This document shows positions 17,502-43,392 of a stretch of 64,000 bases of DNA, piece after piece (within the stretch, counting starts at the first letter, position 1; the number at the start of each line of letters is the position of its first letter). The notes beneath the pieces were generated by a model. That model saw nothing but the letters and a program-made list of their open reading frames with translations. It did not search any database and was not told where the DNA came from. The stretch is from assembly GCA_027486655.1 (NCBI GenBank), contig JAIXOR010000024.1, forward strand, positions 1 to 64,000. The letters run 5' to 3'. Origin of the DNA: Verrucomicrobiaceae bacterium. Its GTDB lineage: Bacteria; Verrucomicrobiota; Verrucomicrobiia; Verrucomicrobiales; Akkermansiaceae. A program made the translations under genes and the position numbers.

Positions 17502-20500
17502 TTACGGCGTGCTGGCGCGGACTTGAATGAAGAGTTTGGAATTGGAAAGACGGCTTGGGGAGATGTTGACGCGGACGGATTGTACGTCGCCTTGGGTGGC
17601 GGTCACGGTCTGGCTGGCGGATGCGTCTTGCGTCCAGCTTGCCAGGTCCGGGGATGTCCAGATGGTGTAGGCGAGGTTGGTTCCAAGCGCGGGATCTCGG
17701 CGGGTGTAGGTGAAGGTGCCGTCGGCGGGCTTGAGCGGGATGGTGATCGGATTGGCGGAGCTGCCGGATTTCGGGTTGAGCGCGAAGGCGTATTCGCTGC
17801 GGTTGTCGAGGCCGTCGCCATCGTCGTCTGCATCTGGGGCACCGCCGACACCGGCGTTGAAGGCCCATGTCGCGTAGTCAACCGACACGCCGGGTCCGGG
17901 TAGAATCGAGCCGTTGTTCACGAGGTTGGGCGGAAGCGCGAATCCCGGCGCGAGGTTGATGATCGTGCCGTTGTTCGTGATGGTGCCGCCGGCGCTCATT
18001 TGCGGCGTGCCGGTGAGGATGAGCGTGCCGTTGTTGATGATGTTGCCGGTGACGGCGAGCGAGCCGGAGATTTCCAAGGTCGCGCCGGTGGCGATGGTGA
18101 CCGACGAGGTGTGGTTCAGGCTGCCGGTGATGATGAGCTTGCCTTCGTTGACAGTGGTGGTGCCGGTATAGGTATTCGAACCTGCGAGGGTCTGGGTGCC
18201 GCTGCCGAGTTTCACCAAGTTGCCCGGCCATGAGGGATTGTTGTCGGTGTTGGTGATGGAGCCCGTGAAAGTGGCCGTGCCATTGTCCACGCCGATGCTC
18301 AGGTTTTGGTAGCCCGCTCCGCCGTATCCGGTGCCGATGGTGCCTGAGCCGGTGAGCCGGTTCACACGGACGTTTGCCTCGACTCCCTTGAAGACCGCAC
18401 CGGAGGCGACGTTGAGATCGGAGAGGTTGGCGACCCAGTTCTCATTCGCATAAGAGCCGCCGATGAAGGTGCCGGCTTGGACGTCGATGAGCGAGCCGGA
18501 ACCGAGGGCGAAGATGGCGGAAGTGGGGCCCCAAACCAGATCTGCCGAGCCCGACTTCCGCAGGGTCCCGGCACCGGAAAAGGTGACGGCGGGCAGGTCC
18601 AGCGAGGTGGCGGCAATGATATCCAGCACCGCACCCGAGGCGATGACGAAGGACGGCGTGGCATAGGGGCCATTCAGGGCCAGCGTGCCGCCGGCAATGG
18701 TGGTGGCTCCGGTGTAGTTGTTAGGACCGGTGACGGACAGCGTGGCGGTGCCTGCTTTGGTCAGGCCGGAGGAACCATTGAGGGCGGAGGCGATCGTGGC
18801 GTTGGCCTCCGTGATCAGTGTCGGCGCACTGCCGTTGAGGGTAAGGCTGTTGCCTTGCAGCGTGTAGCCGGCGGTTTTAAAGCTGATGCGGTTCGCGTTG
18901 ATGTTGGACGCGAGGTTCACCGTTCCCCCCGTGCCGGTGAAGACGGCGGTATAGTCGCTTCCGCCGAAGTCATGCCAGGCGGTGGATGATCCGCCGTCGT
19001 TCCAGTTGGCGGTGCTGCCGATGTCCCAGGTGCCGGAGCCGCCGTTGCCGGTGGCACCCCAGAGCAGCGGGGCGGCGGACAGCGACTCGCCCTTGTAAAC
19101 GCGGAGCGCATCGATGGCCAGGCGGGCGAAGGAGAAGTTCGCTCCCGAGGTGTTGGCACCATGCTCGACATAGACGCTGTGCGAGCCGGGAGTCAGGTTC
19201 GGCATGCTGAACACGCTGGTGCCGGTTTGGCGGGCCGCCGAATAGTTGTTGCGGCGGGCACCGACATGGCGGCCCATGCCGGCAACGCTGAACCAAGCCA
19301 TGCGCGCGTCGGAATCGCGGGTGGTGATCACATCCACGCCGGAACCATTGAAATTCCAGACAAGACGCGCTGGATTGATGTCGGTGTAATGGACGTCGTC
19401 GCCGATCTCGCCGAAGCCGCGGCCGCTGGCCGTGTTCCAGAGATCCGGTCGGGTGACCGTGAATCCATTGAAGCCGGGTTGGCTGGGATCAAACGTTGAT
19501 TTCCAGGTGATGCCGCGGACGGTATGGGTGCCGGGAGGGAGGCCCTGAACGTCGAAGTAGGAAATCTGCCTATCAGAGACGGCGACGTTGCTGTGATAGA
19601 CGCCGTCCACTTTCATGTAGAAGTAGGCGTAACTGAAGGCACTGCCGAGCGGGATGCGGACGCCCGTGCCGGTGAAGGTGAATTCGAAGTAGTCGCTGAC
19701 GGGTTCGTTGTTGAGCGGGTCGTTCAACGGCTCGTTGCCGCCATAGTAATTCACGTGCGGGGTGATCCAGCGCACGACATTGTTTCCGTTCTGCCATTCT
19801 GAATTGGGCCAGCCGTAGTGTCCCGCGGCACCGGGTCCATATTCGGTTGTCGTCAGGAATGCGCCGGCCATTTCCGGGTCGCTGTCATTGACGAGGTCGC
19901 TCACGCGAAAGGCGTCGGCATCCATGGAAGTGCCGCCCATTTTCACCGCTCGAAGCGTGTGGGTGCCACGGGCAAGACCGGATTTACGGAAGGCAACTTG
20001 GCGGCTTCCGATCGGAGTGCCGCTGGATAGATTGACGGTGGCCTGAAACACATCGTCGAGGTAAATGTCCACCGGACCACGATCGGCGGCGCGGGTGGCG
20101 ATGTATTCCACATCGGTGCCGGAAAAGGTGAAGGTGAACGAGTCGCCGTTGGCGGTGGCGATGTGGGCGTCGTCATTGTATTCCCCTGCTCCGCGGTGAT
20201 TTTGATAGGTCCAGGATGCGCCGTTATAGGTGATCGCCGTGCTGGTGTTGTTCACCATGCCCGCGCCACCTTTGGATGCGACGTCGAGCTGGATCACGGT
20301 ATCGAGAGAACTCCAGGAAACACCACTGGGAAGTGTCAGTTGGATGCCGCGCGGGGTCTGGAGCATGGCCATCGGCAGGCCGAGGTATTGCTGGGTGCCG
20401 CCGCCGGGTTCCAACGAGGCCATCAAGGTCGCGCGGCTGAACACCTTGCCATCGACTGCGGCAGGCAGCGTGAGCGTGTTGCCGGATTGCGGTTTGAGGA

Positions 20501-23114
20501 CGTGGATGAATTCCTTGGTGTCATCCATCGAGGTCGTCGCCACCCAGTCCACAGTATCGTAGGTGATGGTTCTGCCGTTTTTATAGGGCGGTGGGAAGCT
20601 GGTGCTAGGCGTGGTTTCGCAGACCGACGGACGGATTGGAGCGAGATAACGGCCAAGAGCGAAAATTCGGGTGGTTTCCTTTAATCCTCCCAGCCCAATG
20701 CCATCAATGCTCCAGTGGACGCCGCCGCCCTCAAAGTTGGCGGCTGCCTCAAGCACGGTGGTGCGAAGCATATCATCGGTTCCGGCCCCAATTCCGGGAC
20801 CGTTGACATAGTTATACTGGCTTTCCGACCAGCCAAAATTCCACCAGTTGGCGACCTCGGGCCCGCCCGTGTCGTTGGTGTAGAGCTGCCCGCCGTTTTG
20901 CATGGTCACCAGATCCGGATTGCCCTCCTTGATGGTGTTCATCAGGCGTTTGTAGTCCACCAGGCTGTCCTGGGTGGCATTGGTCGTATTCTCGTCAATC
21001 CACAAGCCATCGATGCGTGAACCATAACGAGCCATCGTTTCGGCATACAGTTCATTGATAAATTCCTCCCACGGAGAAGCCACGGGCTGGTAGGGGTGGG
21101 TGTAAAGAAAGACCCGGATGCCCTTGGCTTTGACGGCGTCGATCATATCGCCGATCACATCCCGCGATGTCGGACTCCCGCCAGCTTGCCCATACTTCGC
21201 CATGGTCGAACTTGGCCACATCGGCCGAGTGTTGGCATGCCATGCCGTGAATACCACATACTGAACACCCGCCTCTGCGACGTCGTTGGCATACGCGGTG
21301 GCGTTGAACTTGTCGGCTTGTTCATCGACGGTTTGAGGATACACCCCATTGATGTCCGGAACGCCTCCGCCAAGATATCCCATCCACATATAGTGGCTGA
21401 AAATGCCGTATTTCAGGGATTTCCAGCGTTCGCGGTTCGAGATGCCGGTGTCCGGGACGGTGATCACCGTGGAGCCGGAAATGGCCGGCGACTCGAATTG
21501 AGCAAGGCCGGCGGCGACGCTGCCCGGCGCGCCCCAGGTGCCGGGTGATAGTTTCTCGCCGTTGACATATAGTGCCGCCATGGAAGGAAGTCCGCTGGCC
21601 GGGGGGATGAAATTCGCACCGGAGAGCACATTGATGCGGACGCCTGCTGGAAGCGTGGCTGAAGAGAGATCCAGCGTGCCTGCGTTGACGGTGAGGCAAC
21701 CGGTTAGATTGACCGCCCCGCCCAGTTTCAGCGTGCCCGCGCCGGATTTCACCAAACCGCAACCCGAGCCCGACTCGGTGAGCGCGGCGGAAATGAGGAG
21801 GTCGGTGGCGGCGGCTCCATTGGCGACGTCGACGCGCAGCATCGGGGCCGCGTCGCGCCTGATGTGGATGCGGCCGTTGACCGTCGAGGTGGTGGCGCTC
21901 GCTTGGCTGGTGAGTGGGGTGTTTCCCCATTCGAGTTGAGCGGCGGAAACCGATGAAACGCCGCCGTTGCTGGAAAGCGTGCCGCCGGAGAGGTTCACAC
22001 CGCCCGCGACGTTCCAGATGTGAATGGTGCCCGCCGAACTGACCAGACCGCCATGGATCGAAAGCGAGCTGATGCGGGCATCGGTGTAGCCAAAGCCCGT
22101 GCCGTCATCGTTGGTGAGGCGAACTTCCGCGCCGGCATTCACGGTGAGCGGTCCGCGGATGCGACTGGTTCCGCTGTTGGCACCGGAGAGTTCGAGAATG
22201 CCGGAGTCCACGGTGGTGCCGCCGGTGTAGGTGTTGGCGGCGGAAAGTGTCAGTGTCCCTGCGCCCTGCTTGGTTAATGTGCCAGTTTGTACGTCCGTGT
22301 TTCTCAGAATGACGCCGATGGTGATATTGCGGGCAGTAATGCCGTCGAAGGTGTCGATGATCGCCCCGCCATTGGAGATGTAGGCGTTCTGGTTGCCACC
22401 GTACAGGGTGATGAAGTTCGTCGTGTCGGCAGTGGCTTTCACGGTGGTGCCATTGAACGTCAACCACGAGTTGTTGTTCGTGCCAACCTCGCGGTCGGCG
22501 ACTTTGATGGAAGGCGTGTAGAGCGTTCCGCCGTCGAGATTGAGTGAGAAGGTCGCCCCGGTGTTCACACTGCCGTCGATCCCGTTGGTTGAGGTCACCG
22601 TGCCTCCGGAGATGGTCAGATTTGCCCAATCGGCACTGGCAGCATTGGAAATGAAGCGGTTGGTCGTGTAGGTGCCGCCCGAGATGGTGAAATTGGCGCG
22701 TCCGATGGCCGTGTCTCCACTGATGGCAACCGCCGAGTTGATGGTGACGGTGGGGTTGTTGAAGTAGGCGCCGCTGTTGCCGCCATTTCCCTGAACGGTC
22801 AGCGTGCCGCTGCTATTGAGCGTGCCACCGGTGAGCGAGTAGTTGGCGTTGTTGCTGCCATTTCCAAACAGCAGGCTGGTGGCGCTGATCGTGCCGCTGA
22901 GAGTGATGGTGGATGGCGTGGCTGTGTTACTGAACACAGCGTCATTGCCGTTGACCCAGGTTGCTCCCGCCCCGGTCCAGTTGGCCGTGGTCGTATTCCA
23001 ATTACCGGAAGTTGTGTTCCAGTTGTAGATCCCCGCGTGGGCGGAAAGGCAGAAAGCGAGTGTGGCGCTGGTGAGGTGGAAGGCGCAAAGGATCCGCTGG
23101 ATCTGGTTTTTCAT
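17502..23114 (-). CDS. giant GH29-like barrel inside autotransporter-type beta repeats
   Basis: This 1870-residue secreted protein has a signal peptide (1-27), then about 500 residues of beta-strand repeats (GAGTLTLSAANTYTGGTTVD is one unit). The GH29-like barrel begins near 565 with YGIFSHYMWMGY (569-580), continues with VVFTAWHANTRP, and has Asp707 in IDGLWIDENT as nucleophile candidate. Several beta-sandwich modules follow, each with a THTLR-type strand. A second long PATR region comes next, then a Ca-binding-like DADDDGDGLDN stretch. The protein ends in a module of about 100 residues ending LFIQVRAS, shared with the protein at 37792-40194. The enzyme is thus displayed inside a long beta-solenoid, probably at the cell surface. 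No autotransporter beta-barrel is present, so export must use another route. Confidence 0.9.
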   Translation of the reverse strand: MKNQIQRILCAFHLTSATLAFCLSAHAGIYNWNTTSGNWNTTTANWTGAGATWVNGNDAVFSNTATPSTITLSGTISATSLLFGNGSNNANYSLTGGTLNSSGTLTVQGNGGNSGAYFNNPTVTINSAVAISGDTAIGRANFTISGGTYTTNRFISNAASADWANLTISGGTVTSTNGIDGSVNTGATFSLNLDGGTLYTPSIKVADREVGTNNNSWLTFNGTTVKATADTTNFITLYGGNQNAYISNGGAIIDTFDGITARNITIGVILRNTDVQTGTLTKQGAGTLTLSAANTYTGGTTVDSGILELSGANSGTSRIRGPLTVNAGAEVRLTNDDGTGFGYTDARISSLSIHGGLVSSAGTIHIWNVAGGVNLSGGTLSSNGGVSSVSAAQLEWGNTPLTSQASATTSTVNGRIHIRRDAAPMLRVDVANGAAATDLLISAALTESGSGCGLVKSGAGTLKLGGAVNLTGCLTVNAGTLDLSSATLPAGVRINVLSGANFIPPASGLPSMAALYVNGEKLSPGTWGAPGSVAAGLAQFESPAISGSTVITVPDTGISNRERWKSLKYGIFSHYMWMGYLGGGVPDINGVYPQTVDEQADKFNATAYANDVAEAGVQYVVFTAWHANTRPMWPSSTMAKYGQAGGSPTSRDVIGDMIDAVKAKGIRVFLYTHPYQPVASPWEEFINELYAETMARYGSRIDGLWIDENTTNATQDSLVDYKRLMNTIKEGNPDLVTMQNGGQLYTNDTGGPEVANWWNFGWSESQYNYVNGPGIGAGTDDMLRTTVLEAAANFEGGGVHWSIDGIGLGGLKETTRIFALGRYLAPIRPSVCETTPSTSFPPPYKNGRTITYDTVDWVATTSMDDTKEFIHVLKPQSGNTLTLPAAVDGKVFSRATLMASLEPGGGTQQYLGLPMAMLQTPRGIQLTLPSGVSWSSLDTVIQLDVASKGGAGMVNNTSTAITYNGASWTYQNHRGAGEYNDDAHIATANGDSFTFTFSGTDVEYIATRAADRGPVDIYLDDVFQATVNLSSGTPIGSRQVAFRKSGLARGTHTLRAVKMGGTSMDADAFRVSDLVNDSDPEMAGAFLTTTEYGPGAAGHYGWPNSEWQNGNNVVRWITPHVNYYGGNEPLNDPLNNEPVSDYFEFTFTGTGVRIPLGSAFSYAYFYMKVDGVYHSNVAVSDRQISYFDVQGLPPGTHTVRGITWKSTFDPSQPGFNGFTVTRPDLWNTASGRGFGEIGDDVHYTDINPARLVWNFNGSGVDVITTRDSDARMAWFSVAGMGRHVGARRNNYSAARQTGTSVFSMPNLTPGSHSVYVEHGANTSGANFSFARLAIDALRVYKGESLSAAPLLWGATGNGGSGTWDIGSTANWNDGGSSTAWHDFGGSDYTAVFTGTGGTVNLASNINANRISFKTAGYTLQGNSLTLNGSAPTLITEANATIASALNGSSGLTKAGTATLSVTGPNNYTGATTIAGGTLALNGPYATPSFVIASGAVLDIIAATSLDLPAVTFSGAGTLRKSGSADLVWGPTSAIFALGSGSLIDVQAGTFIGGSYANENWVANLSDLNVASGAVFKGVEANVRVNRLTGSGTIGTGYGGAGYQNLSIGVDNGTATFTGSITNTDNNPSWPGNLVKLGSGTQTLAGSNTYTGTTTVNEGKLIITGSLNHTSSVTIATGATLEISGSLAVTGNIINNGTLILTGTPQMSAGGTITNNGTIINLAPGFALPPNLVNNGSILPGPGVSVDYATWAFNAGVGGAPDADDDGDGLDNRSEYAFALNPKSGSSANPITIPLKPADGTFTYTRRDPALGTNLAYTIWTSPDLASWTQDASASQTVTATQGDVQSVRVNISPSRLSNSKLFIQVRASTP

Positions 23115-23369: not shown

Positions 23370-24023
23370 TCACTCGCCGTGGTACTTGGCGACGGCCTGG
23401 GCGCGCGAGTGGACGTGGAGTTTCTCGTAGATCCGGGCGATGTGGGTTTGCACGGTCCAGTAGCTGATGCCGAGTTGATTAGCGATCTCCTTCTGGAGCA
23501 AACCCTTGACCAGCAATTCCAACACATCGTTTTCGCGAGCGGAAAGCTGGGTCATTCCATCCGGGGCGGCGGCGACGGAGGTGGGTGGGGCAGGTTTCCG
23601 GAAGGTCTGGATGACCCGGCGGGCAATATTGGACGACATGGGCGCGCCGCCGGCGAGGATTTCCTTGATGGCTGCGATGAGCTGGGCGGAGCGCACCGGC
23701 TTGAGCAGGTAGCCACCGGCACCGGCGGCGAGGGAATTGAAGATGGCGTCGGTGTCGTCATACACCGTGATCATGATCATGTGGGTGTCCGGTAATTCCA
23801 AGGAGAGCCTCTCGACGCATTGCACTCCATTCATGCCTGGCAGATTGATGTCCATCAACACGACCTTGGGTCGAAGCGCGGGGAGCGCGGCCACGGCCTG
23901 CTCGCCATCCTCGAAGGAGCCGATGCATTGAAACCCCTCCGCGCGTTCCACAATGGTTTGCAGATTGCGGCGCAGGCCGGGGCTGTCTTCGACGATGGCG
24001 ATGGTGACGGGCTCGGAGGGCAT
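23370..24023 (-). CDS. NarL/FixJ-type response regulator
   Basis: This 217-residue two-domain regulator has a receiver domain (about 5-125) with acidic residues Glu12-Asp13, phosphorylation site Asp58 in VVLMDINLPGMNG, Thr86 and Lys108. A LuxR-type helix-turn-helix fills residues about 157-217 (LSARENDVLELLVKG, then QKEIANQLGISYWTVQTHI). Phosphorylation should come from the histidine kinase encoded directly upstream. I chose the ATG at 24023; a TTG at 24038 overlapping the kinase stop is the alternative. Likely targets are genes of this locus, with the palindrome at 23254 as a candidate site. Confidence 0.93.
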   Translation of the reverse strand: MPSEPVTIAIVEDSPGLRRNLQTIVERAEGFQCIGSFEDGEQAVAALPALRPKVVLMDINLPGMNGVQCVERLSLELPDTHMIMITVYDDTDAIFNSLAAGAGGYLLKPVRSAQLIAAIKEILAGGAPMSSNIARRVIQTFRKPAPPTSVAAAPDGMTQLSARENDVLELLVKGLLQKEIANQLGISYWTVQTHIARIYEKLHVHSRAQAVAKYHGE

Positions 24024-24034
24024 GAGGGCGGTTT

Positions 24035-26953
24035 TCAAGATTTCAGAGGAGCAGTGAAAGTGACGATGGTGCCATGGCCGGGCGAGCTTTGGCAGGTGAA
24101 GGTGCCACCGATTTTCTCCATGCGCTCACGCATGTTGCGCGTCCCGCGGACGGCGGCGGCCTGCTCCGATGAATCGAATCCGCAGCCACTGTCCTCGATG
24201 ACGAGGGAAACATGATCACCGTGGAGGACGATGCGCAATGTGATTTCAGCGGGCTTGCCGTGGCGCACCGCATTGTGGATGGCCTCCTTGGCGGCAAGGA
24301 ACAAGTTGTGGCGCTGGATGGAATTCAGGGGCCGTGGAGGCAGTTGCTCAGGCACATCGAGACGGCAGCCGACGCGGGCGAGTGCGAGGTAATCCTGGGT
24401 GAACTTGCAGAGGAATCCGGCGAAGCGTTCCAACGTGTCGTTCGCGGGATTGATGGCCCAGACAATCTCGCCGAGGCGGCGGGCATTGGATTCGGCGCGA
24501 ATGAAGATTTCATTCAGGGATTGGCGTGACGGATCATGCTCAGGCAGTTGCTCCTGCGCGAGGTCGCTGATCATGGCGATCTCTGCGAGGTTGGCGCCCA
24601 GATCATCATGAAGATCGCGGGCGATGCGTGTTCGCTCCACCGCCAGCGAATGTTGGCGGTCAAGCTGGAGCCAGGCAACATAGCGCCAGGCGGCGGTGAT
24701 CACGCTGCCGACCATCACGGCGACCATCGACCAGAACCACCACTGGCGGGTGACGGGCAGTTGGATGGAAAGATCGATGCGTTGGGGCGATCCATATTGG
24801 CGGTCGCGCATTCGGATTCGCCAGACATTCTCGCCGGCTTGGTCGATGGCGGTGACGACGAGACCTGAGGTCGCACCGAGGACAGGCAGGAAACGGCTGT
24901 ATACAAAAAGGTCTCCGGCGCGGGCCCCAGCGTCTGTCAGTTCGATCGCCATGGACGAGCGGGAGCTGCGGATGGCTTTGATTTCGGCCGCGCCGCAGTA
25001 GACATGAAGGTTTGAACCAATCAGCACGGGTATTGAAGATTCCGGTATCGGCGTGAAGCACAGGTGCTGGGAAGCGGATGGAGCCAACTGCGGCGTGCTC
25101 CAGAACTCCTGGGCCAGGCCGAGGTAGCGGTTCTCCCAAAACGACCAGACGGCGCAGCGCTGCTTCGGGTCCAGCCTGGCTTGTGCAAAATCGAGCGTCA
25201 CCACCTGCTCCTTGTCTGATGGATTCCACAACAACGCCACCGTGGAATCACCCCAGTCCCTTTTCACCTGCCCGACCAGCCGCGGCCATTCCTTCGCCGT
25301 GCCGATGTCCAGCACTTCCGTTCGTTCCTGAGCTGGAGGAGACAGCACCTCGACATTGCGCCAGTAGGGCTTGTACTTTTCCTGATTCCAAGTGTCCGAT
25401 GTGAACGCCGCCCCGCATGACAGCCCCACCATGCTGATCCAAGTCCGCGCCAACGGCCAGCCACCCACCACCGGACTCACGTCCTTCAACTCCGTCGCCA
25501 TGTAATAACAGTCATTGTCCACGGCGAACCAACGCCCGTTGAGCTGATAGGAATTCAGAACGTGCCGCATGACATCTCTCACACCGCTGCGGGTAGTGAC
25601 GGGGCCGGTGCGGCTGGCATCGACCAGCCCCAAGGTGGCACGGTCTGTGAACCAATCGCAAAACAGAATGTAGGTATCCTCCCCCGCTGCCTCCCGGAGA
25701 GCCTGGAAGTTTTCACGGAACACCTCCAAACTGGTCTTTTCTCCCCCGGCAAGCGTTTTGCGAAACGCATTGGGCTGGTGATAGCCAATCTTCAAATACG
25801 AAAAGCCATCTCGGACCGCCTGCCGCACGTCCGCGATGCACCGGTTGATGTCTGTTTTCGACATGTCAAAATCCAGTTTGAGGCCCGCCCGCTGACCTGC
25901 GGCGGAGATTTTCCGCGCGTAGTAGGAAAATCCCTCTGGATAGAAGTCAGCGATGTCCATGGGTTTTCCTGGGTCAGCTTCGTAGTTCTCGCCGATCTGG
26001 ATGACATCGGGCCGCAGCCGTCCGTCCGACTTCCCGATTTGCGCGACCACACCGAGTACGTCCGTGCCACGGGCGATCCGTTCGGGCGAATACACGCTGC
26101 TCCATCCGCTGAGGGCTCCCTTGGCTGTCCGCGACCCGTGCGTCCGGGCCACCCATTCCGCCCAGCGTGCCATCGCCGTCCGCGGAGGCTCGAAAAACAG
26201 CCCGGCCTGCTGCCCCCAGCGGGTCTGCCCTGGATCGACGCGCACCAAGTCCATCGAGGAAACCAGGATCATGCCGGCCCGACCATCCCCCAGCGGAGAA
26301 ACCAGCGTGGAAAGATAGCTCACGGGCTCGCCAACCGGTCCGAACAAAAATCCCGCCCTGTCACCGCGGTAGAAGCCACCCTGTTCGTGGATCCAAGAAG
26401 CAGTTTTCATTTCACCGAGAATCAGCTGAACGGACGTCTTTGCATGCAGCCCTGTCAGGAACCAATCCTCGGGCTTGCCATCTACTTGAAGAAAACGTCC
26501 GGCACCGGCGGCAATGCCGGTCAGCGGAGCATCGTTCATCACCAGCGGCACAAGCTCCGCCAGCCTGACCGACTGTTCGCCGAAATTGCGGATTCCCGCT
26601 TGCACCAACACCACTTGCGGAGTGTCGGCAACCGTTCCAAGGCGGAACAACAATTCGAGCCGTTCTTCCTCGAAGCGGATCACCGAAGTCGTCACCATGG
26701 TGGAGCCATATGCCCCCGACTCAGTCGCCGTTTTGGTTTCAACGACCTTGCCAGAAGTCGAATTGAGAGAACGGCCCCCACCGTTAATTTCCACGTTTGC
26801 CGCAAACCCGGCCCGAAGCATCGTCAGACCCGGCGCGGAGATCGTGAATGAACGTCCATCGGCAGATAGCCGGGCATCCTCACCAATCGACTGACCACAA
26901 CCCGCCACGGCCATCACCAAGAGTGCGGCGAGTCGAGGGAATAGGTGGCGCAT
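24035..26953 (-). CDS. sensor histidine kinase with a degenerate GH36/melibiase-like sensor domain
   Basis: Numbering is from the ATG at 26953 (972 residues). A signal or lipoprotein-like N-terminus (VMAVAGC, Cys19) leads into a beta-sandwich (about 25-255). A melibiase-type barrel follows, with RPDVIQIGENYE (314-325), GFSYLKIGYH (383-392) and GLVDASRTGPV (442-452). GRWFAVDNDCYYM lies just after. Active GH36 enzymes have IDD, K-x-D and R-x-G-x-D at these places; here they read IGE, K-I-G (Gly390) and GPV (Val452). Both catalytic aspartates are therefore gone. A beta domain (about 560-735) and one membrane segment (about 737-760) lead to a HisKA_3 dimerisation domain (ARDLHDDLGANLAEI, His782) and an ATPase domain (Asn894, DSGCGF). 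It is read as a non-catalytic glycan receptor. A TTG nine bases upstream is a less likely start. Confidence 0.93.
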   Translation of the reverse strand: MRHLFPRLAALLVMAVAGCGQSIGEDARLSADGRSFTISAPGLTMLRAGFAANVEINGGGRSLNSTSGKVVETKTATESGAYGSTMVTTSVIRFEEERLELLFRLGTVADTPQVVLVQAGIRNFGEQSVRLAELVPLVMNDAPLTGIAAGAGRFLQVDGKPEDWFLTGLHAKTSVQLILGEMKTASWIHEQGGFYRGDRAGFLFGPVGEPVSYLSTLVSPLGDGRAGMILVSSMDLVRVDPGQTRWGQQAGLFFEPPRTAMARWAEWVARTHGSRTAKGALSGWSSVYSPERIARGTDVLGVVAQIGKSDGRLRPDVIQIGENYEADPGKPMDIADFYPEGFSYYARKISAAGQRAGLKLDFDMSKTDINRCIADVRQAVRDGFSYLKIGYHQPNAFRKTLAGGEKTSLEVFRENFQALREAAGEDTYILFCDWFTDRATLGLVDASRTGPVTTRSGVRDVMRHVLNSYQLNGRWFAVDNDCYYMATELKDVSPVVGGWPLARTWISMVGLSCGAAFTSDTWNQEKYKPYWRNVEVLSPPAQERTEVLDIGTAKEWPRLVGQVKRDWGDSTVALLWNPSDKEQVVTLDFAQARLDPKQRCAVWSFWENRYLGLAQEFWSTPQLAPSASQHLCFTPIPESSIPVLIGSNLHVYCGAAEIKAIRSSRSSMAIELTDAGARAGDLFVYSRFLPVLGATSGLVVTAIDQAGENVWRIRMRDRQYGSPQRIDLSIQLPVTRQWWFWSMVAVMVGSVITAAWRYVAWLQLDRQHSLAVERTRIARDLHDDLGANLAEIAMISDLAQEQLPEHDPSRQSLNEIFIRAESNARRLGEIVWAINPANDTLERFAGFLCKFTQDYLALARVGCRLDVPEQLPPRPLNSIQRHNLFLAAKEAIHNAVRHGKPAEITLRIVLHGDHVSLVIEDSGCGFDSSEQAAAVRGTRNMRERMEKIGGTFTCQSSPGHGTIVTFTAPLKS

Positions 26954-27075: not shown

Positions 27076-28230
27076 TCATGGCTTTTCAAACTCTCCCAGA
27101 TCCCACTTGTCCTTCCACTCGCTGAAGGGCAGGCCGTCGTCGTTGAACTGGAGCGGCAGCCAGATGTAGCGGCCATCGATCGCATTTTCCGGCTTCCAGC
27201 GATCGGACATCAGGATAAAGGCGTCTTTCTTGCCCTGCACTGGCAACACGAAAGTGGACTGGGATTCAAAGGTCGTCGCTTTCTGCTCGTCCGTGCCAAC
27301 GGCGGGATGGCCAAGCGATTTCCATGGCCCCCAAATGCTGTCGGCCATACTGAGACGTGCGGGGTTGTGAGACCAACCGGTGCAGCCGGAGCTGATGATG
27401 TAGTATTTCCCCTGATGCTTGAACATCGCAGGGGCTTCGTTGAAATCTCCCGGGAAGATGCGGATGTATTTGCCTGCGGGTTTCAGATAGTCATCGGTGA
27501 GTTGGGAAATGTGGAGCGTACCATTGTGCTCGGACGAATAGAGATGATAGGCCTTGCCGTCGTCATCGACGAAGAGGTTCATATCGCGGGCCATCTGACC
27601 GCACTCGTGATGGAGGCGGAAGAGCGATTCCTTCGGGTAATCGGGGACCGGGCCACCGGGAAGATGGATTTTGGAAATGGCCGCGGCTTCTTCTTCCGTG
27701 AGCGGTTTCTTCCGGTCATCGGGAACATTCGCGGGCCAGACGCCGGCGTTCGGGCGGAAGCTGCCGAGATACTGATACGGGCCGGTGACTTTGTCCGCCA
27801 CGGCCACACCGCTGCGGGCTGCGTTGTAGCCTTGGTCCTTGAGTTCGAGGTGAAACCACATGACGAACTTGCCGGTCTTCTTGTTGTAGATGACTTTGGG
27901 CCTTTCCAGGATACAGCCCTTGGTAATCTCACTTTGCGAGTCTTCCGAAACGGGTAAGGCGATGCCATCGTCCATCCAGTTGTAGAGGTCCTTTGAAGAA
28001 TACACGCTGACGCCGACGTGAGCGACGTTGCCCGCCCCGCCCGCGACCATGTGCTGGCCGAACCAGTAATACGTCCCCTCGTGGAACAGAATGCCGCCGC
28101 CGTGGGCATTGATGTGGACGCCATTGTTATCCGGCCAGATTTCGCCAGGGACGAATGGTTTGAGCAGCTCCGCAGCATGGCCGGCGGCCAGAGACGCCGC
28201 GAAGAGGACGCTGAATAGGATGTGTTTCAT
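27076..28230 (-). CDS. secreted GH43 family glycosidase
   Basis: This 384-residue enzyme has a signal peptide (MKHILFSVLFAASLAAGHAA) and a five-bladed GH43 propeller. WPDNNGVHINAHGGGIL carries the likely base Asp34, RDMNLFVDDDGKAY near 215-228 the middle aspartate, and FNEAPAMFKHQGKYY the likely acid Glu265. The INAHGGG and SSGCTGW signatures resemble the branch containing exo-beta-1,3-galactanases, but arabinofuranosidase and beta-xylosidase are other activities in GH43. I chose the ATG at 28230 because the signal peptide starts there. It follows the GH29-like/PATR gene by 28 bases and is the last gene of its group, with 122 bases between the kinase start and its stop. Confidence 0.9.
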   Translation of the reverse strand: MKHILFSVLFAASLAAGHAAELLKPFVPGEIWPDNNGVHINAHGGGILFHEGTYYWFGQHMVAGGAGNVAHVGVSVYSSKDLYNWMDDGIALPVSEDSQSEITKGCILERPKVIYNKKTGKFVMWFHLELKDQGYNAARSGVAVADKVTGPYQYLGSFRPNAGVWPANVPDDRKKPLTEEEAAAISKIHLPGGPVPDYPKESLFRLHHECGQMARDMNLFVDDDGKAYHLYSSEHNGTLHISQLTDDYLKPAGKYIRIFPGDFNEAPAMFKHQGKYYIISSGCTGWSHNPARLSMADSIWGPWKSLGHPAVGTDEQKATTFESQSTFVLPVQGKKDAFILMSDRWKPENAIDGRYIWLPLQFNDDGLPFSEWKDKWDLGEFEKP

Positions 28231-28258
28231 GCGTTGGAAGAGGATGGTTCTGTGAGGT

Positions 28259-31200
28259 TCAGCGCGGAGCTTCCACCGACAATACTCCGCCACCTGTGAC
28301 CAGATTCGGGTGGGAGGTGGCGGTGTAGGTCCCTGCGGCGAGTGGCTTGCCGTCGGGCATCCGGACGGGAAGCGCGAGAACGGCTTTTGTTCCATCGGCG
28401 ACGTAGATCATCGGCTTGTCACCGGTGAGATCCAGCGACTGACCGCTCAGCACGTATCGGTCGCTGCGGAATGCCAAGCGGTTGACGCGAACCGGAGCGG
28501 CGACACGGATGTTCCCGCCTTTTCCTGCGAAATCGGCGCTGTGGTCGTTGGCTCCGAAGTCGAGCCATTTCACGGAACCCGTGATGTCGCGCCAGTTGGC
28601 GGTGCCATTGACGTCCCAGGTGCCGTCGCCGCCTTGGCCATTCTCACCCCACAGGAGCGGTGTCGCCGAGGAGGATTCCGCCTTGTAAATGCGGAAGGCA
28701 TCGATGGTCAGACGTACGAAGGAGAAGTTGATCCCCTGATGGTTGCCGCCGTTCTCGAAGCCGACCGTATAGGTGCCGGGCACCAGGTTGGGGTAGCGAA
28801 AGACACTGGATTTTGGAATCCGGACCGGGGCGTAATGATTGAGCGAAACCCACATCCGGCTGCCATTGCCGTCCAAGGTGTAGTAAGCGGTGCGCGAATC
28901 GGGGTCCCGGGTAACGATGACCTCGACGCCGGATCCGTTGAAGGTGTAGCTGCCGCTGCCACCGCGTCGGTCGCAGTAATGCACGTCGTCCTGATCATTG
29001 CCGGAACCGCGCTTCGACTTGCGGTTCCAGTAGTCGGGGCGCGTGACTTTGAATCCGTCCAAAGCCCCTTGGAAGCCACCCGGGCAGCGGTTGGTGTAGT
29101 TCCCCGCCAGGGTATGCTTGCCGAGCTTGAGACCCGTGATCTTCGCGAGGCTGCGGTTCGGGTTGTCCCCGCTGATGTGGATGGTGGAATGCGGCTTGCC
29201 GTCGAGCGTGAGTTCCAGATCGGCATAGTTCCAGGCGGAGCCTCCAAAGAGTTCCACCTCGGTGCCCTCGAAATCGAAGCTGAACGACTGGCCGTTGATC
29301 CAAGTGTTGCCGCGCGGTTCCCAGGAACCACCGAGTTGAGCGCTTGTGACACCGAACCAGCGGGTATCGGCGAAGTCCACACCTGGGTCGCTGTCGTTGA
29401 CCAGTTCGGTGACCTTGAAGGCATCCACCGTCATCACGACACCGCCGCGCTTGGTGCCGGTGAGCGTGTGCGTGCCGCGTGGCAGGCCGGACTTGGCAAA
29501 GACCTTCTGGAAACTTCCGCTGCCTATGGAGAGATCGACCGTTCCTTGGGAAACCCCATCGATGGCGAGTTCCACCACCCCGCGATCCGGTCCGCGGCTG
29601 CTGATCCATTCCACGTCGGTGCCGGTGAAGGTGAAGGTGAACGAATCCCCGTCGGCAGTGGCGGAGTGTGCGTCGTTGCGGAATTCGCGGAGATTGCGGT
29701 TCGGCTGATAGGCCCAGGAGCTGCCGCGATAGCTGATCGCACGGCTGGTGTTGTTCACCAATCCCGCGCCACCGGGGCAAAGGACGTCCATGGCGATGAC
29801 CGTGTTAGGCGTCACCCACGGAGTCCCGTCCGGCAGCGTGAGGGAGATTCCACGGTTGTCCTGAACCAGCTTGACCGGGCGGCCGGTGGCAAGGAGCCGG
29901 GCGTTGGTGAACACCTTGCCGTCGGCGGGCGGCGGCAGTGTCAATGTGTTGCCAGTCGGTGGAACGAGGACATGGAGGTATTCCCGGCTGTCGTCATGGG
30001 CCTTGGTGGCCACGCCCCATTTCAAGCCCGACTTCCGCACCACCACGCCTTGGAAGGGCGGCGGGAATGAGCTGCTTGGGTTGGTGTTTTTCACCGACTC
30101 GGCGATCGGCTCCAACAATTTCGCCAAGCCATCAATCAACGGAGCCTGGGTGTGGTCGATCCCACCGCGTATCCCCTTGCCCGCCCCTTCCGCGTTCGGG
30201 CTCCACTGGACGCCACCGCCTTGGGAATTGGCGGCCGCCTGGATGACCGTCGTGATGAGCATCGACTCGGGATTGCGCCCGGTGTTGTAGATGAGCTGGT
30301 AGGTGGAAATCGCGCGACCTTCCTCCACCTCCCATTGCACCTCCTGCACGCCGTCCACCCCGTAGTTCGCACCGCCATTCTGCAACAGCACGAGGTCGGG
30401 ATTGCGTTCCCGGATGGTTTTCATCAGGCGCGGATAGTCAACCGCCCGGTCCTGCGTGCCATCTGTGAAATTCTCGTCCATCCATAAGCCGTCCAGCCGA
30501 TCGCCGTAGCGATCGATCAACTCGGCGAACAAATCGTTGAGCCAGTCATCGTGCGGCGAACTCACCGGCTGGTAGGGATGGACATAGAAGTAGAAGCGGA
30601 TCCCCTTGGCGCGGCAGGCGTCCGCCAGATCACCGAGCAGGTCGCGTTTCGGACAGCTCTTCCGGTCCGGCGCCCACTTGGCCATCGCCGCGCTGGGAAA
30701 GAGCGGGCAGGTGCCAGAGTGCCACGCGGTGAAGACGCAATACTGCGCACCCGCCTTCACCAGTTGATCCACGTAGTTCGGGACATCCAGAATCTCGGCA
30801 AACTCATCGATGTTCGCGGCATTGGAACCGTCCGCATTCGGCCAACCGGGCGCCATCCCATAGCCGTTCCAGACGTAATGGCTGAAGATGCCGTATTTGA
30901 GACGCATCCAGGTTTCGCGTCGCGATGGACCGGTATCGGGAATCTTGACGACACCACCAAGTTGCGGCGATTCAAAGTTCGCCTTGCCTGCCGCCACGCT
31001 GCCCGGAGCACCCCAGAGGCCGGGCTTGAGCTTTTCGTTATTGATATAAATTTCTGAAATCGGCGTTCCGGAAATCGGAGGGATGAGTTTGGCGGTGCCG
31101 AGCACGTTCACGCGAATCCCCGGAACGAGAGCCCCTTTGGAAAAATCCAGCGTGCCATCATAGACGGTGATAACACCGGCAAGTTTCACCGACCCCTCCA

Positions 31201-31531
31201 CAGCCATCGTTCCCGGGCCGTCCTTCACGAAGCCGCAGGTGCCGCCTGTTTCGGCGATCCCGTTGGATAGCAGCAGGTCGGTCGCCGCAGTGCCATCTTC
31301 CACGGTGAACGAGCATACCGAAAAGACGTCGTGTGGTATCACCACCTTGTCCTCGACTTTTAAAGTCGTGGACGCGGATTTCATGATGAATCCCGGTCGA
31401 TTCGGATTGGGCATCACCCCGGCGAGCTTGGTCCAGTCTGCCGCTCCGGATGCGCAGCAAGCACCGGTGAAGCTAAGAAAACAGGCAAGTGGGATGGATC
31501 GCAGGAGTGGCGTGAAAAACGGCTTGGTCAT
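28259..31531 (-). CDS. GH29-like glycosidase embedded in PATR-like modules (paralogue)
   Basis: This 1090-residue protein has the same layout as the one at 9575-12823. It has a signal peptide (1-31), a PATR-like half (FVKDGPGTMAVEGS and ITVYDGTLDF), then the barrel with YGIFSHYVWNGYG (213-225), CVFTAWHSGTCPLFPS and LDGLWMDENF. Asp352 of the last motif is the nucleophile candidate. Repeated beta-sandwich modules and a closing PATR-like half follow (VNRLAFRSDRYVLSGQSLDL). The KHHDGF motif of ordinary GH29 enzymes is again missing. It lies 190 bases downstream of a GH78 gene and 28 bases upstream of the GH43 gene. High similarity to 9575-12823 along the whole length points to duplication within the locus. 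Confidence 0.88.
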   Translation of the reverse strand: MTKPFFTPLLRSIPLACFLSFTGACCASGAADWTKLAGVMPNPNRPGFIMKSASTTLKVEDKVVIPHDVFSVCSFTVEDGTAATDLLLSNGIAETGGTCGFVKDGPGTMAVEGSVKLAGVITVYDGTLDFSKGALVPGIRVNVLGTAKLIPPISGTPISEIYINNEKLKPGLWGAPGSVAAGKANFESPQLGGVVKIPDTGPSRRETWMRLKYGIFSHYVWNGYGMAPGWPNADGSNAANIDEFAEILDVPNYVDQLVKAGAQYCVFTAWHSGTCPLFPSAAMAKWAPDRKSCPKRDLLGDLADACRAKGIRFYFYVHPYQPVSSPHDDWLNDLFAELIDRYGDRLDGLWMDENFTDGTQDRAVDYPRLMKTIRERNPDLVLLQNGGANYGVDGVQEVQWEVEEGRAISTYQLIYNTGRNPESMLITTVIQAAANSQGGGVQWSPNAEGAGKGIRGGIDHTQAPLIDGLAKLLEPIAESVKNTNPSSSFPPPFQGVVVRKSGLKWGVATKAHDDSREYLHVLVPPTGNTLTLPPPADGKVFTNARLLATGRPVKLVQDNRGISLTLPDGTPWVTPNTVIAMDVLCPGGAGLVNNTSRAISYRGSSWAYQPNRNLREFRNDAHSATADGDSFTFTFTGTDVEWISSRGPDRGVVELAIDGVSQGTVDLSIGSGSFQKVFAKSGLPRGTHTLTGTKRGGVVMTVDAFKVTELVNDSDPGVDFADTRWFGVTSAQLGGSWEPRGNTWINGQSFSFDFEGTEVELFGGSAWNYADLELTLDGKPHSTIHISGDNPNRSLAKITGLKLGKHTLAGNYTNRCPGGFQGALDGFKVTRPDYWNRKSKRGSGNDQDDVHYCDRRGGSGSYTFNGSGVEVIVTRDPDSRTAYYTLDGNGSRMWVSLNHYAPVRIPKSSVFRYPNLVPGTYTVGFENGGNHQGINFSFVRLTIDAFRIYKAESSSATPLLWGENGQGGDGTWDVNGTANWRDITGSVKWLDFGANDHSADFAGKGGNIRVAAPVRVNRLAFRSDRYVLSGQSLDLTGDKPMIYVADGTKAVLALPVRMPDGKPLAAGTYTATSHPNLVTGGGVLSVEAPR

Positions 31532-40612: not shown

Positions 40613-42826
40613 TCACTCCGCGCCAAGCGCCTCGCGGACGAGGATCACGGCCAGGGCGCGTTCGACGACGGGCACAAAGTTGGTATTTGCGGCGGGCGAG
40701 AGCTTGATGAACTCCTCGCCGTGGGCTTCCAGATAGCTTTCAACGGCATCCTTTTCCGCAGCAGCGCGGGTGCTGTCGCCGGTTTGCCGACAGGCCATCA
40801 GCAGGATGGAGTGGAGGTATGCCTGGTAGTCGCCGCTGCCGGCTGATGGATCGCTCTCCACGAGGGGCAGGGCAAGGTCGGCCCAGACGATGGCCTCTTC
40901 CGGATTGCCGCACCGCAGTTCATAGAGTGCGAGGGCGGTATTCACCAACATGGGCCTCCAAGGATTTTCGGCTGCGGACTGTTTTCTGAGAAATTCCGCC
41001 GACGCTTGCAGGCGCTGGATGAGTTCCGGCGAGGCGGGTCTGAGCAGGCACATTTTGATGAGCTGCTCGGCGGCGTTGGGATTGCTGGTTCCGGTGAATC
41101 GGTCAAGAAGGAGCGCGCGGTGCTCTTCGTAGGCGTCACCCATGCCCGCCATGACCAATGCCGGGGCGGTGCGGATCATGTCGCCGGTGTCGGGGATCGC
41201 CTCGCTCGGAATGAAGCGATTGGCGAGTGGCAAAAGCATGTAACATTCGGCGGCGGCCTTCCAGCGGTGGTGCAGCAGGTGCCAGTCACCCAAGCCGCGG
41301 AAAACGCCGGTGGCCTCCTGTGAGGGCTCGATGGTGTCGAGCGGGGTCTGGCGGAGCACGGCGTCGGCCTCGTCGGTCTTGCCCTGGCTGAGGAGCAGGG
41401 ATGCCTTGGAAACATTGGCGCGGGCCTGGGCTTGCTGGCGCAGCTTTGCCTCCGCGGAACGGGCGGTTTCCGCGATCTGGCGCAGACGCTGTTGTTCCTT
41501 CAGCGCGGCATTTTCCCGAAGATACATGCCGGTGGAAACGGCGAAGCCTGCCAGCACGGTGAGGGTGATGAGCAGTACGGAAACACAGGCCGCGCGGTTG
41601 CGATCCACGAACTTGCGGAATCGATAGAGTCTGCCCGCTGGGCGAGCCAGCACCGGCTCGTTGGCGAGGAAGCGCGCCAAGTCGAGGGCCAGGCCGTTGA
41701 CGGTTTCGTAGCGGCGGGAGCGGTCTTTTTCGAGGCACTTGAGGACCACCTGGTCGAGATCGCCCCTGACGGTGGAGATCCATTTGGCCACATCCGTGCC
41801 GCGGCACCCGGCAAGAGCGGCTGCATCCGCAGGATACAGGGCCGCAATGTCCGAGGATGGAATCGGAATTTCGCGGTGGAGGAGAATTTCCAACGCGGCC
41901 GGGTAGCCCGCCGCGCCGAGTTCAACCGGATCGAAGACCGGGCGGCCGACTAACAACTCGTGGAGCAGGATGCCAAGGCTATAGACGTCGCTGCGGGTAT
42001 CCACATCGATGCCGCCGCTAGCCGCCTGCTCGGGACTCATCGAAGCGAGCGTGCCCATCGGCTGGCCGCCGGCTTCCGTCAGGCCGGGCGTCAATTCCGA
42101 ACCATCGGTGGCTTTGGCGATGCCGAAATCGATGACCTTGGGCTCCATTTTTCCGTCCTGCATCGAGACGAGCACGTTCGACGGCTTGATGTCGCGGTGG
42201 ATCACACCTTTCTGGTGGGCGTGCTGGATGGCTTGGCAGACTTCGATGAACAATTCGAGTCGCGGCCGGATGCCGAGCCGGTGTTCATCGCAGAAATCCG
42301 TGATTTTCCGCCCGCGCACCCATTCCATGGCGAAGTAAGGACGGCCGGTCGGGGTGGTGCCGGCGTCGAGCACGTGGGCGATGTGCGGATGATCCATCAT
42401 CGCGAGCGCCTGACGCTCGACCTCGAAGCGGGCGATCACTCGTTCCGTGTCCATGCCCAGACGGATCACCTTGAGCGCGACCCGGCGCCTCACCGGCGAC
42501 TCCTGTTCGGCGAGGTAAACAACTCCACAGCCTCCCTCGCCGATGCGCTCCAAAAGCCGGTAGGGTCCGATGCGATCGGACGGGGCAGGTCCATCCGCGA
42601 AAGCAGTCGGGTCGAAGGGCTCGACGTCGACCGTGCAGGCCTCGGTGACGCCGGAGAAATAGGCATCGCTTTGCAAGCGGGCCTCCAGCAACGCTTCGAG
42701 CCGGACGCGCAGGTCAGGCCGGGCGGCGCAGGTCAGGTCGAGGAAGGTGGCGCGCATCGATTCGTCGCCGATCTGCAGGGCGGCATCGAACAGAAGCATT
42801 TCGATCTGGCGCGAAGCGTCTGCCAT
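40613..42826 (-). CDS. membrane Ser/Thr protein kinase partnered with an ECF sigma factor
   Basis: This 737-residue Pkn-type kinase has all core motifs: glycine loop IGEGGCGVVY (about 95-104), Lys119 in VALKVI, HRDIKPSN at 210-217, DFG at 233-235 and SPEQ in place of APE. After the kinase domain (about 85-390) come one membrane segment (about 413-432), a coiled-coil-like stretch rich in Gln, Arg and Ala, and a helical TPR-like outer region. An N-terminal segment (1-80) precedes the catalytic domain. The ATG overlaps the TGA of the sigma gene by one base, so they are translationally coupled. In planctomycetes and verrucomicrobia such kinases are thought to control their ECF partner by phosphorylation. 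What it senses is unknown. Confidence 0.93.
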   Translation of the reverse strand: MADASRQIEMLLFDAALQIGDESMRATFLDLTCAARPDLRVRLEALLEARLQSDAYFSGVTEACTVDVEPFDPTAFADGPAPSDRIGPYRLLERIGEGGCGVVYLAEQESPVRRRVALKVIRLGMDTERVIARFEVERQALAMMDHPHIAHVLDAGTTPTGRPYFAMEWVRGRKITDFCDEHRLGIRPRLELFIEVCQAIQHAHQKGVIHRDIKPSNVLVSMQDGKMEPKVIDFGIAKATDGSELTPGLTEAGGQPMGTLASMSPEQAASGGIDVDTRSDVYSLGILLHELLVGRPVFDPVELGAAGYPAALEILLHREIPIPSSDIAALYPADAAALAGCRGTDVAKWISTVRGDLDQVVLKCLEKDRSRRYETVNGLALDLARFLANEPVLARPAGRLYRFRKFVDRNRAACVSVLLITLTVLAGFAVSTGMYLRENAALKEQQRLRQIAETARSAEAKLRQQAQARANVSKASLLLSQGKTDEADAVLRQTPLDTIEPSQEATGVFRGLGDWHLLHHRWKAAAECYMLLPLANRFIPSEAIPDTGDMIRTAPALVMAGMGDAYEEHRALLLDRFTGTSNPNAAEQLIKMCLLRPASPELIQRLQASAEFLRKQSAAENPWRPMLVNTALALYELRCGNPEEAIVWADLALPLVESDPSAGSGDYQAYLHSILLMACRQTGDSTRAAAEKDAVESYLEAHGEEFIKLSPAANTNFVPVVERALAVILVREALGAE

Positions 42827-43392
42827 CACGGATTCGCGGGTTTTTTTTCCTCAGCCTGGATCATGGTGAACAAGATGGACCTCGCATAGGACCACTGCCT
42901 TTCAACGGTGCGCTCGGACACGCCGAGCGACTCCGCCACCTCGCGGTTGGTAAGTCCGCCGAAGAACTTGAGGACGACCACCTGGGCGCTCTCGGGGTCC
43001 TCGAGTTCGAGCTTCCTGAGGCTGTCATCGATCCGGATCAGGCGTTCCTCGGGACTCGGGGAGCTGCTTTTCAGCACCTCGTCCTGTTCGAGGTGGGACC
43101 GCAGCGCCGAGCCCCGGCGGCGTTTGCGGCGCGCGCTCTCCACCAGGATGCGGCGCATGGCCAGTGCCGCGGAGCGGAAGAAGTGTTCGCGGTCGTTCCA
43201 CTTGCGGTCGTCGCGAAGGGTCAACTTGATCCAAGCCTCGTGGACCAGCGCGGTCGGCTGGAGCGTCAGCCCGTCCGATTCGCTTGCCATGCGGGCGGCC
43301 GCCAAGTGGCGCAGCTCCTCGTACACCTCGGGAAGCCATCGTGTAGACTTCGAACGCGGTTCGGATTCCGGGAGCGGATAGGGTTCGTTCAT
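42826..43392 (-). CDS. ECF-type RNA polymerase sigma factor (Sigma70_ECF, kinase-linked)
   Basis: This 188-residue protein matches the Sigma70_ECF family common in planctomycetes and verrucomicrobia. Region 2 (about 20-95) contains LYEELRHLAAARM-type and HEAWIKL segments and RRILVESARRKRR. Region 4 (about 125-182) contains GGLTNREVAESLGVSERTVE and ends in an RQWSYAR recognition helix. No anti-sigma factor is next to it; its partner is the Ser/Thr kinase with which its stop codon overlaps. It lies 87 bases downstream of a GH29 gene, with no clear terminator between them. It could direct polymerase to genes of this locus, but no matching promoters could be defined. Confidence 0.92.
   Translation of the reverse strand: MNEPYPLPESEPRSKSTRWLPEVYEELRHLAAARMASESDGLTLQPTALVHEAWIKLTLRDDRKWNDREHFFRSAALAMRRILVESARRKRRRGSALRSHLEQDEVLKSSSPSPEERLIRIDDSLRKLELEDPESAQVVVLKFFGGLTNREVAESLGVSERTVERQWSYARSILFTMIQAEEKKPANP

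Follow-up and report, generated by a model that had tools for sequence, protein, structure and literature searches.

Introduction

Glycoside hydrolase folds are already known to serve as sensors. In Clostridium thermocellum, the membrane receptor RsgI6 has as its extracellular sensor a GH10 domain with very low activity that has kept its polysaccharide binding (PMC4711584). More broadly, pseudoglycosidases form a named group that includes glycan binders, and YKL-39/40 and Klotho are inactive folds turned binding proteins (PMC7828330), although these are animal proteins of GH18 and GH1 that are not coupled to histidine kinases. In the hybrid two-component systems (HTCS) of Bacteroides, a membrane kinase with an extracytoplasmic glycan sensor of propeller/Y_Y_Y fold controls glycan-degradation genes.

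The locus described here lies in a 64,000-nucleotide stretch of Verrucomicrobiaceae DNA (the window) and encodes a histidine kinase. We propose that it is a two-component receptor whose extracytoplasmic sensor is probably a complete but catalytically dead GH36-type glycosidase turned glycan receptor. Like RsgI6, which sets the precedent in principle, the window protein is a membrane receptor with a glycoside hydrolase ectodomain, and here the catalytic residues are absent. RsgI6, however, is an anti-sigma factor with regulated proteolysis, a GH10 fold and an origin in Clostridia, whereas the window protein belongs to clan GH-D and has kinase domains in place of the RsgI_N anti-sigma domain, which is absent from it. 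Nor is RsgI6 described as part of a large clade strictly lacking both catalytic residues. The HTCS share a membrane kinase, a glycan sensor and control of glycan-degradation genes (the latter two inferred for the window protein) with our locus, but differ in sensor fold and in that the window's regulator is a separate protein. In the open-access literature we found no report of a fusion between a GH36/melibiase or other clan GH-D pseudoenzyme and a histidine kinase, and no sensor class of this kind for glycan regulation in Verrucomicrobiota. The original prediction that such a fusion is not an established class thus holds for that literature, but the principle had been anticipated by the GH10 sensor of RsgI6; the feature for which that literature gave no counterpart is a histidine kinase carrying a pseudoenzyme of clan GH-D.

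Results

A single open frame (24035-26953; this and all other window genes and features located below are on the minus strand) encodes, from its ATG, a 972-residue protein in which a signal sequence is followed by an entire enzyme of clan GH-D (GH36-type), a lone membrane segment and a HisKA_3/HATPase kinase. The signal sequence, recognized by hydropathy (residues 1-25, MRHLFPRLAALLVMAVAGCGQSIGE; 26879..26953), is lipoprotein-like (VAGC); a paralogue 84% identical to the window protein is without this lipoprotein-like signal, and paralogue L013 has an ordinary signal peptide in its place. The enzyme portion begins with a beta-supersandwich domain (residues 26-255; 26189..26878), assigned from the DSSP of an AlphaFold model and from alignment to the N-terminal domain of TmGalA, the GH36 alpha-galactosidase of Thermotoga maritima. 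It continues into a pseudo-GH36 (beta/alpha)8 barrel (residues ~282-535; 25349..26110), defined by the model, fold comparison and family profile, and a C-terminal beta domain (residues ~544-636; 25046..25324), defined by the model and structure alignment and matched by Melibiase_C below cut-off in free relatives. A juxtamembrane beta-sandwich (residues 640-735; 24749..25036) follows, which is also C-terminal in kinase-free relatives; fold comparison gave it only middling matches to glycosidase C-terminal sandwiches, with Z up to 7.8, too low to assign the domain.

The single membrane segment (residues ~738-761; 24671..24742) is predicted from hydropathy alone, and its position is supported by the kinase-free relatives, which stop exactly there. 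The kinase comprises a HisKA_3 dimerisation/phosphoacceptor domain with the phospho-accepting His782 (residues 773-836; 24446..24637; HMMER E 6.8e-10) and an HATPase_c domain with an N box (EAIHNAVRH) and a DSGCG G box (residues 884-971; 24041..24304; HMMER E 2.8e-12), bearing out the original prediction of one membrane segment and a complete kinase. Immediately downstream lies a LuxR-type response regulator (Response_reg and GerE; 23370..24038, likely ATG start at 24023), and the adjoining of kinase and regulator is conserved at nearly all loci of relatives. The window protein does not have the HTCS layout, in which a receiver and a DNA-binding domain share one chain with a propeller/Y_Y_Y sensor: its chain ends with the HATPase domain and it has no match to Reg_prop or Y_Y_Y. 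Other HisKA_3 kinases of the genome have sensors of propeller/Y_Y_Y (L067), LamG-like (L068) and F5/8C type (L069; a weak match below cut-off).

Scans of Pfam and NCBIfam matched no glycoside hydrolase family in the sensor: residues 1-770 had no HMMER match, and the protein did not pass the cut-off of the Pfam melibiase family. Homology to GH36 therefore rests on a PDB sequence search, profiles and fold. TmGalA was matched by phmmer against PDB sequences (E 1.3e-5) and by a family profile of 19 relatives (E 6.4e-23), in which the columns of its catalytic residues D327 and D387 correspond to G390 and V452. The four strand motifs from which a GH36-type barrel had originally been proposed are found in order at residues 314, 383, 442 and 473. 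An AlphaFold model of residues 26-735 (pLDDT 82.9, pTM 0.83) ranked clan GH-D enzymes first in Foldseek, with a GH36 galactosaminidase at 5.9e-24. VIA comparison of the model gave GH27 alpha-galactosidases at Z 24.8 (3.7-3.8 A over 327-331 residues) and TmGalA at Z 20.6 (3.2 A over 450 residues). The structural check proposed with the original prediction thus placed the best matches inside clan GH-D and not outside it. With the beta-supersandwich, barrel and C-terminal beta domain of this clan, together with sequence homology, the modelled sensor belongs to GH36.

Active GH36 enzymes have a nucleophile Asp in a K-x-D motif and an acid/base Asp in an R-x-G-P-D motif, and both are missing from the window protein. 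Phmmer, the family profile and alignment all place Gly390 (25784..25786) at the nucleophile position (TmGalA D327) and Val452 (25598..25600) at the acid/base position (TmGalA D387), as had been predicted along with His782. We aligned both columns across fused and kinase-free relatives, sorting rows solely by the presence of a downstream kinase, apart from one fused row cut by a contig end (L028), whose class was assigned from its tree position. In this main set both carboxylates were present in 0/26 fused and 17/17 kinase-free members. Seven fused loci and one free locus fetched later as an out-of-sample test gave 0/7 and 1/1, bringing the totals to 0/33 and 18/18. Because the sequences are related, these counts are not independent trials, and the force of the comparison is in the strict split and the held-out loci.

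The catalytic residues have been lost in many ways, with nucleophile/acid columns reading N/E, S/D, L/N, N/A, D/A, E/A, G/V and others in fused members, so no single replacement became fixed. In variability, these columns rank near the top of the domain (84th-98th percentile). Across the aligned sequences, loss of the carboxylate pair strictly accompanies kinase fusion, and the fused sensors match what is expected of pseudoglycosidases, with the fold kept and the catalytic residues lost, the activity of the free relatives being assumed from their residues.

Of the two positions in the window protein, Val452, where the acid is lost, is the stronger sign of inactivity. Gly390 alone is no proof: inverting GH97 enzymes, which belong to the same superfamily, carry a K(T/S)GY motif whose Gly occupies the nucleophile position (PMC2670981), and the window protein reads K-I-G-Y. 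The original claim that the sensor has lost its catalytic residues stands for the retaining pair. The domain could still be an enzyme of GH97-like inverting type, in which a base on strand 3 or 5 would replace the strand-4 nucleophile and the receptor would cut its own ligand. Asp361 and Asp363 at the end of strand 3 and Asp433 at the end of strand 5 are candidates for such a base, and among the 33 fused members 19 have D/E at 361 or 363 and 12 have D/E in the acid/base column. The other 21, however, have no carboxylate in that column, and the window protein has Val452 where BtGH97a has Glu532, which is isostructural with the GH27 acid/base (PMC2670981). The window protein also has neither the HHET-type base motif (its strand 3 is LKLDFDMS) nor the HE motif of inverting GH97, at none of the catalytic strand ends has a new carboxylate become constant in the fused clade, and the link that a shared inverting mechanism would predict, of a carboxylate on strand 3 with retention of the acid, is not significant (p 0.16). 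We consider a GH97-like enzyme quite unlikely. An inverting mechanism with a strand-3/5 base at least in those fused members with D/E in the acid/base column, by which the receptor would slowly destroy its ligand and reset itself, is decidedly improbable; if true, such a switched-mechanism domain would be enzyme and receptor in one, with turnover setting the length of the signal.

Several sugar-site residues have been retained around the lost carboxylates. Lys388 (25790..25792; TmGalA K325) and Arg448 (25610..25612; TmGalA R383) are kept sugar contacts, with Lys in 25 and Arg in 24 of the 26 fused members, and the columns of Asp445, Asp479 and Trp284 are kept in all 26, so that these five columns are 92-100% constant. 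Elsewhere the pocket is remodelled. Between strands 3 and 4, the segment from Gly357 to Lys388 (25790..25885) is shortened, measuring 27-39 residues in the 26 fused members versus 70-86 in 17 free ones, a loss of ~40 residues. The strand 3 Trp (TmGalA W257) is W in 18/18 free members and absent from all fused. On strand 2, Gly321-Glu322 (25988..25993) replace the Asp-Asp pair; most fused members have lost the second Asp and kept the first. The 'IGE' originally noticed in place of 'IDD' is indeed present (I320-G321-E322), but it is confined to the window protein, which has lost even the first Asp, and one paralogue.

In active GH27/GH36 structures the second strand 2 Asp and the W257-equivalent contact the sugar; with the one largely and the other entirely gone, sugar binding by the pocket may have been lost as well. 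The sensor shares whole-enzyme homology, fold and the Lys and Arg contacts with GH36 alpha-galactosidases (TmGalA, 1ZY9/5M0X; TtGalA, 6LCJ), but is kinase-fused and has lost their Asp pair, Trp257 equivalent and beta3-beta4 loop. Alpha-galactosides, proposed for binding tests in the original prediction, are doubtful ligands because the ~40-residue loop and the W257-equivalent are gone; with the galactose contacts only partly kept, the ligand is probably not an alpha-galactoside. Loss of the loop and the Trp opens the site, which would suit a dead barrel that binds protein rather than glycan, as the pseudo-GH1 of Klotho binds FGFs; partners, on which it would report, could be a neighbouring PATR/GH29 protein or a transport component. 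Protein-binding pseudoglycosidases are known (PMC7828330), and PATR proteins are frequent neighbours of these kinases. A pure protein-docking surface, however, would not need the near-constant Lys, Arg and Asp of the sugar site, and we regard protein binding as unlikely.

Estimates of dN/dS for the barrel were 0.09-0.37, comparable to those for the kinase domains, with dS saturated for some pairs. By these estimates the barrel is under purifying selection, which argues against its being a mere structural spacer or dimerisation module with the signal sensed elsewhere, in the juxtamembrane sandwich or the membrane segment. In favour of a spacer, oligomers are common among clan GH-D enzymes, and the juxtamembrane domain shows good conservation from fused to free members; yet this domain is common to the kinase-free enzymes, and the catalytic columns of the barrel diversify among paralogues. 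A spacer is thus very improbable. Taken from the alignments, the pattern fits a pocket freed from catalysis and retuned, rather than a decaying domain.

Whole-genome searches of the window's own genome found the sensor in four kinase-fused copies and in one copy without a kinase. The sensor family is present in 12 of 73 genomes of the same genus, and its patchy distribution also takes in one further genus of the family, additional families and one more class of the phylum; fused members span four Verrucomicrobiota families. A chance or artefactual join, for instance of neighbouring genes mistaken for a single one, has a negligible probability, since the one open frame seen here recurs at over 30 independent loci from several families. 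A tblastn search of plasmids returned haloarchaeal GH36 enzymes only, with no kinase fusion. The open frame of one fused member (L126; G718 C335) is unusually long, at 1276 residues.

In a sensor tree built without the catalytic columns, the fused members form one clade with 100/100 support, nested among kinase-free enzymes, so by this tree the fused sensor clade has a single origin. The kinase-free relatives terminate exactly at the membrane entry point of the fused proteins, which indicates that the whole enzyme was joined to the kinase. Evolution of the fused protein as one unit was rejected, because the kinase tree disagrees with that of the sensors and thus points to later exchange of kinases; in the kinase tree, the window kinase groups with L069, L020 and L108. 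The L069 kinase domain is 57% identical to that of the window protein, another sign of shuffling between sensors and kinases. On a separate contig, two fused pseudo-GH36 kinases stand in tandem (L064:6165-12834; G000 C14, 104-111 kb), and the sole adjacent regulator found comes behind the second of them, followed by a PATR/GH29 protein; the second kinase is 84-85% identical to the window sensor. About 16 kb away is a relative without a kinase that retains the two catalytic Asp and has an NPCBM domain (L065:4396-7215; G000 C14, 126-129 kb), possibly making up an enzyme/sensor pair for one glycan.

The kinase gene is embedded in a glycan-degradation neighbourhood. Past the regulator, in an arrangement similar to that of L064, lies a gene for a 1870-residue PATR-repeat protein with a partial GH29-like domain (17502..23114), a possible target of the system; PATR proteins of this kind adjoin several fused kinases in other genomes. 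Upstream lie a GH43 enzyme, close to the kinase gene (27076..28395), and a GH29-like protein (28259..31531), and the window is dense in GH29, GH97, GH78, GH43 and related genes. The 5.3-Mb genome has 34 matches to GH29 (alpha-L-fucosidase-like), 13 of them on the 110-kb contig that holds the window (C17), along with two GH97, GH78-like, GH43 and F5/8C proteins; it is a very extensive region for the breakdown of fucose glycans. The glycosidase cluster also contains another regulatory pair of a different kind at 40613-43392, an ECF sigma factor (Sigma70_ECF) beside a Ser/Thr protein kinase.

The contig with two other fused kinases has a further 7 of the 34 GH29 matches. Within this one genome, GH29 or GH95 genes were found within 10 kb of 4/4 fused kinases versus 1/15 other HisKA_3 kinases (p 0.0013, or 0.005 counting the tandem pair once), an association we treat as a lead because fucosidases were picked after the neighbourhood had been seen. 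Relatives elsewhere adjoin GH29, GH95, GH16 and sulfatase genes, and an abundance of GH29, GH78 and GH95 is known from freshwater Verrucomicrobia (PMC5615132). The neighbourhood points to fucose-containing glycans.

Discussion

Under the proposed glycan-receptor explanation, the full-length gene of a secreted enzyme would have acquired, in a single event, a membrane segment and a HisKA_3 kinase. Afterwards the enzyme would have lost both catalytic carboxylates, a tryptophan and the ~40-residue pocket loop, while selection preserved the barrel and several sugar-contact residues. In the present-day receptor, an oligosaccharide outside the inner membrane, probably containing fucose or rhamnose, would occupy the old active site and be held there, not cut. 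Its binding would move the C-terminal beta domains relative to the one membrane helix, thereby switching autophosphorylation of His782, from which phosphate would pass to the adjacent LuxR-type regulator, the putative controller of the neighbouring glycan-degradation genes. Lack of activity, glycan binding, the identity of the ligand, the direction of the switch and the regulon are all parts that we infer.

The family offers a stepwise view of how an enzyme may become a receptor, from intact kinase-free enzymes to one fused clade in which the catalytic pair and the pocket loop are lost in all descendants. The fused sensors are a natural set of candidate glycan-binding proteins from clan GH-D. 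As their pockets have diversified among paralogues that sit in different glycan-degradation clusters, they may provide a direct route to the ligands that regulate glycan use in Verrucomicrobiota.
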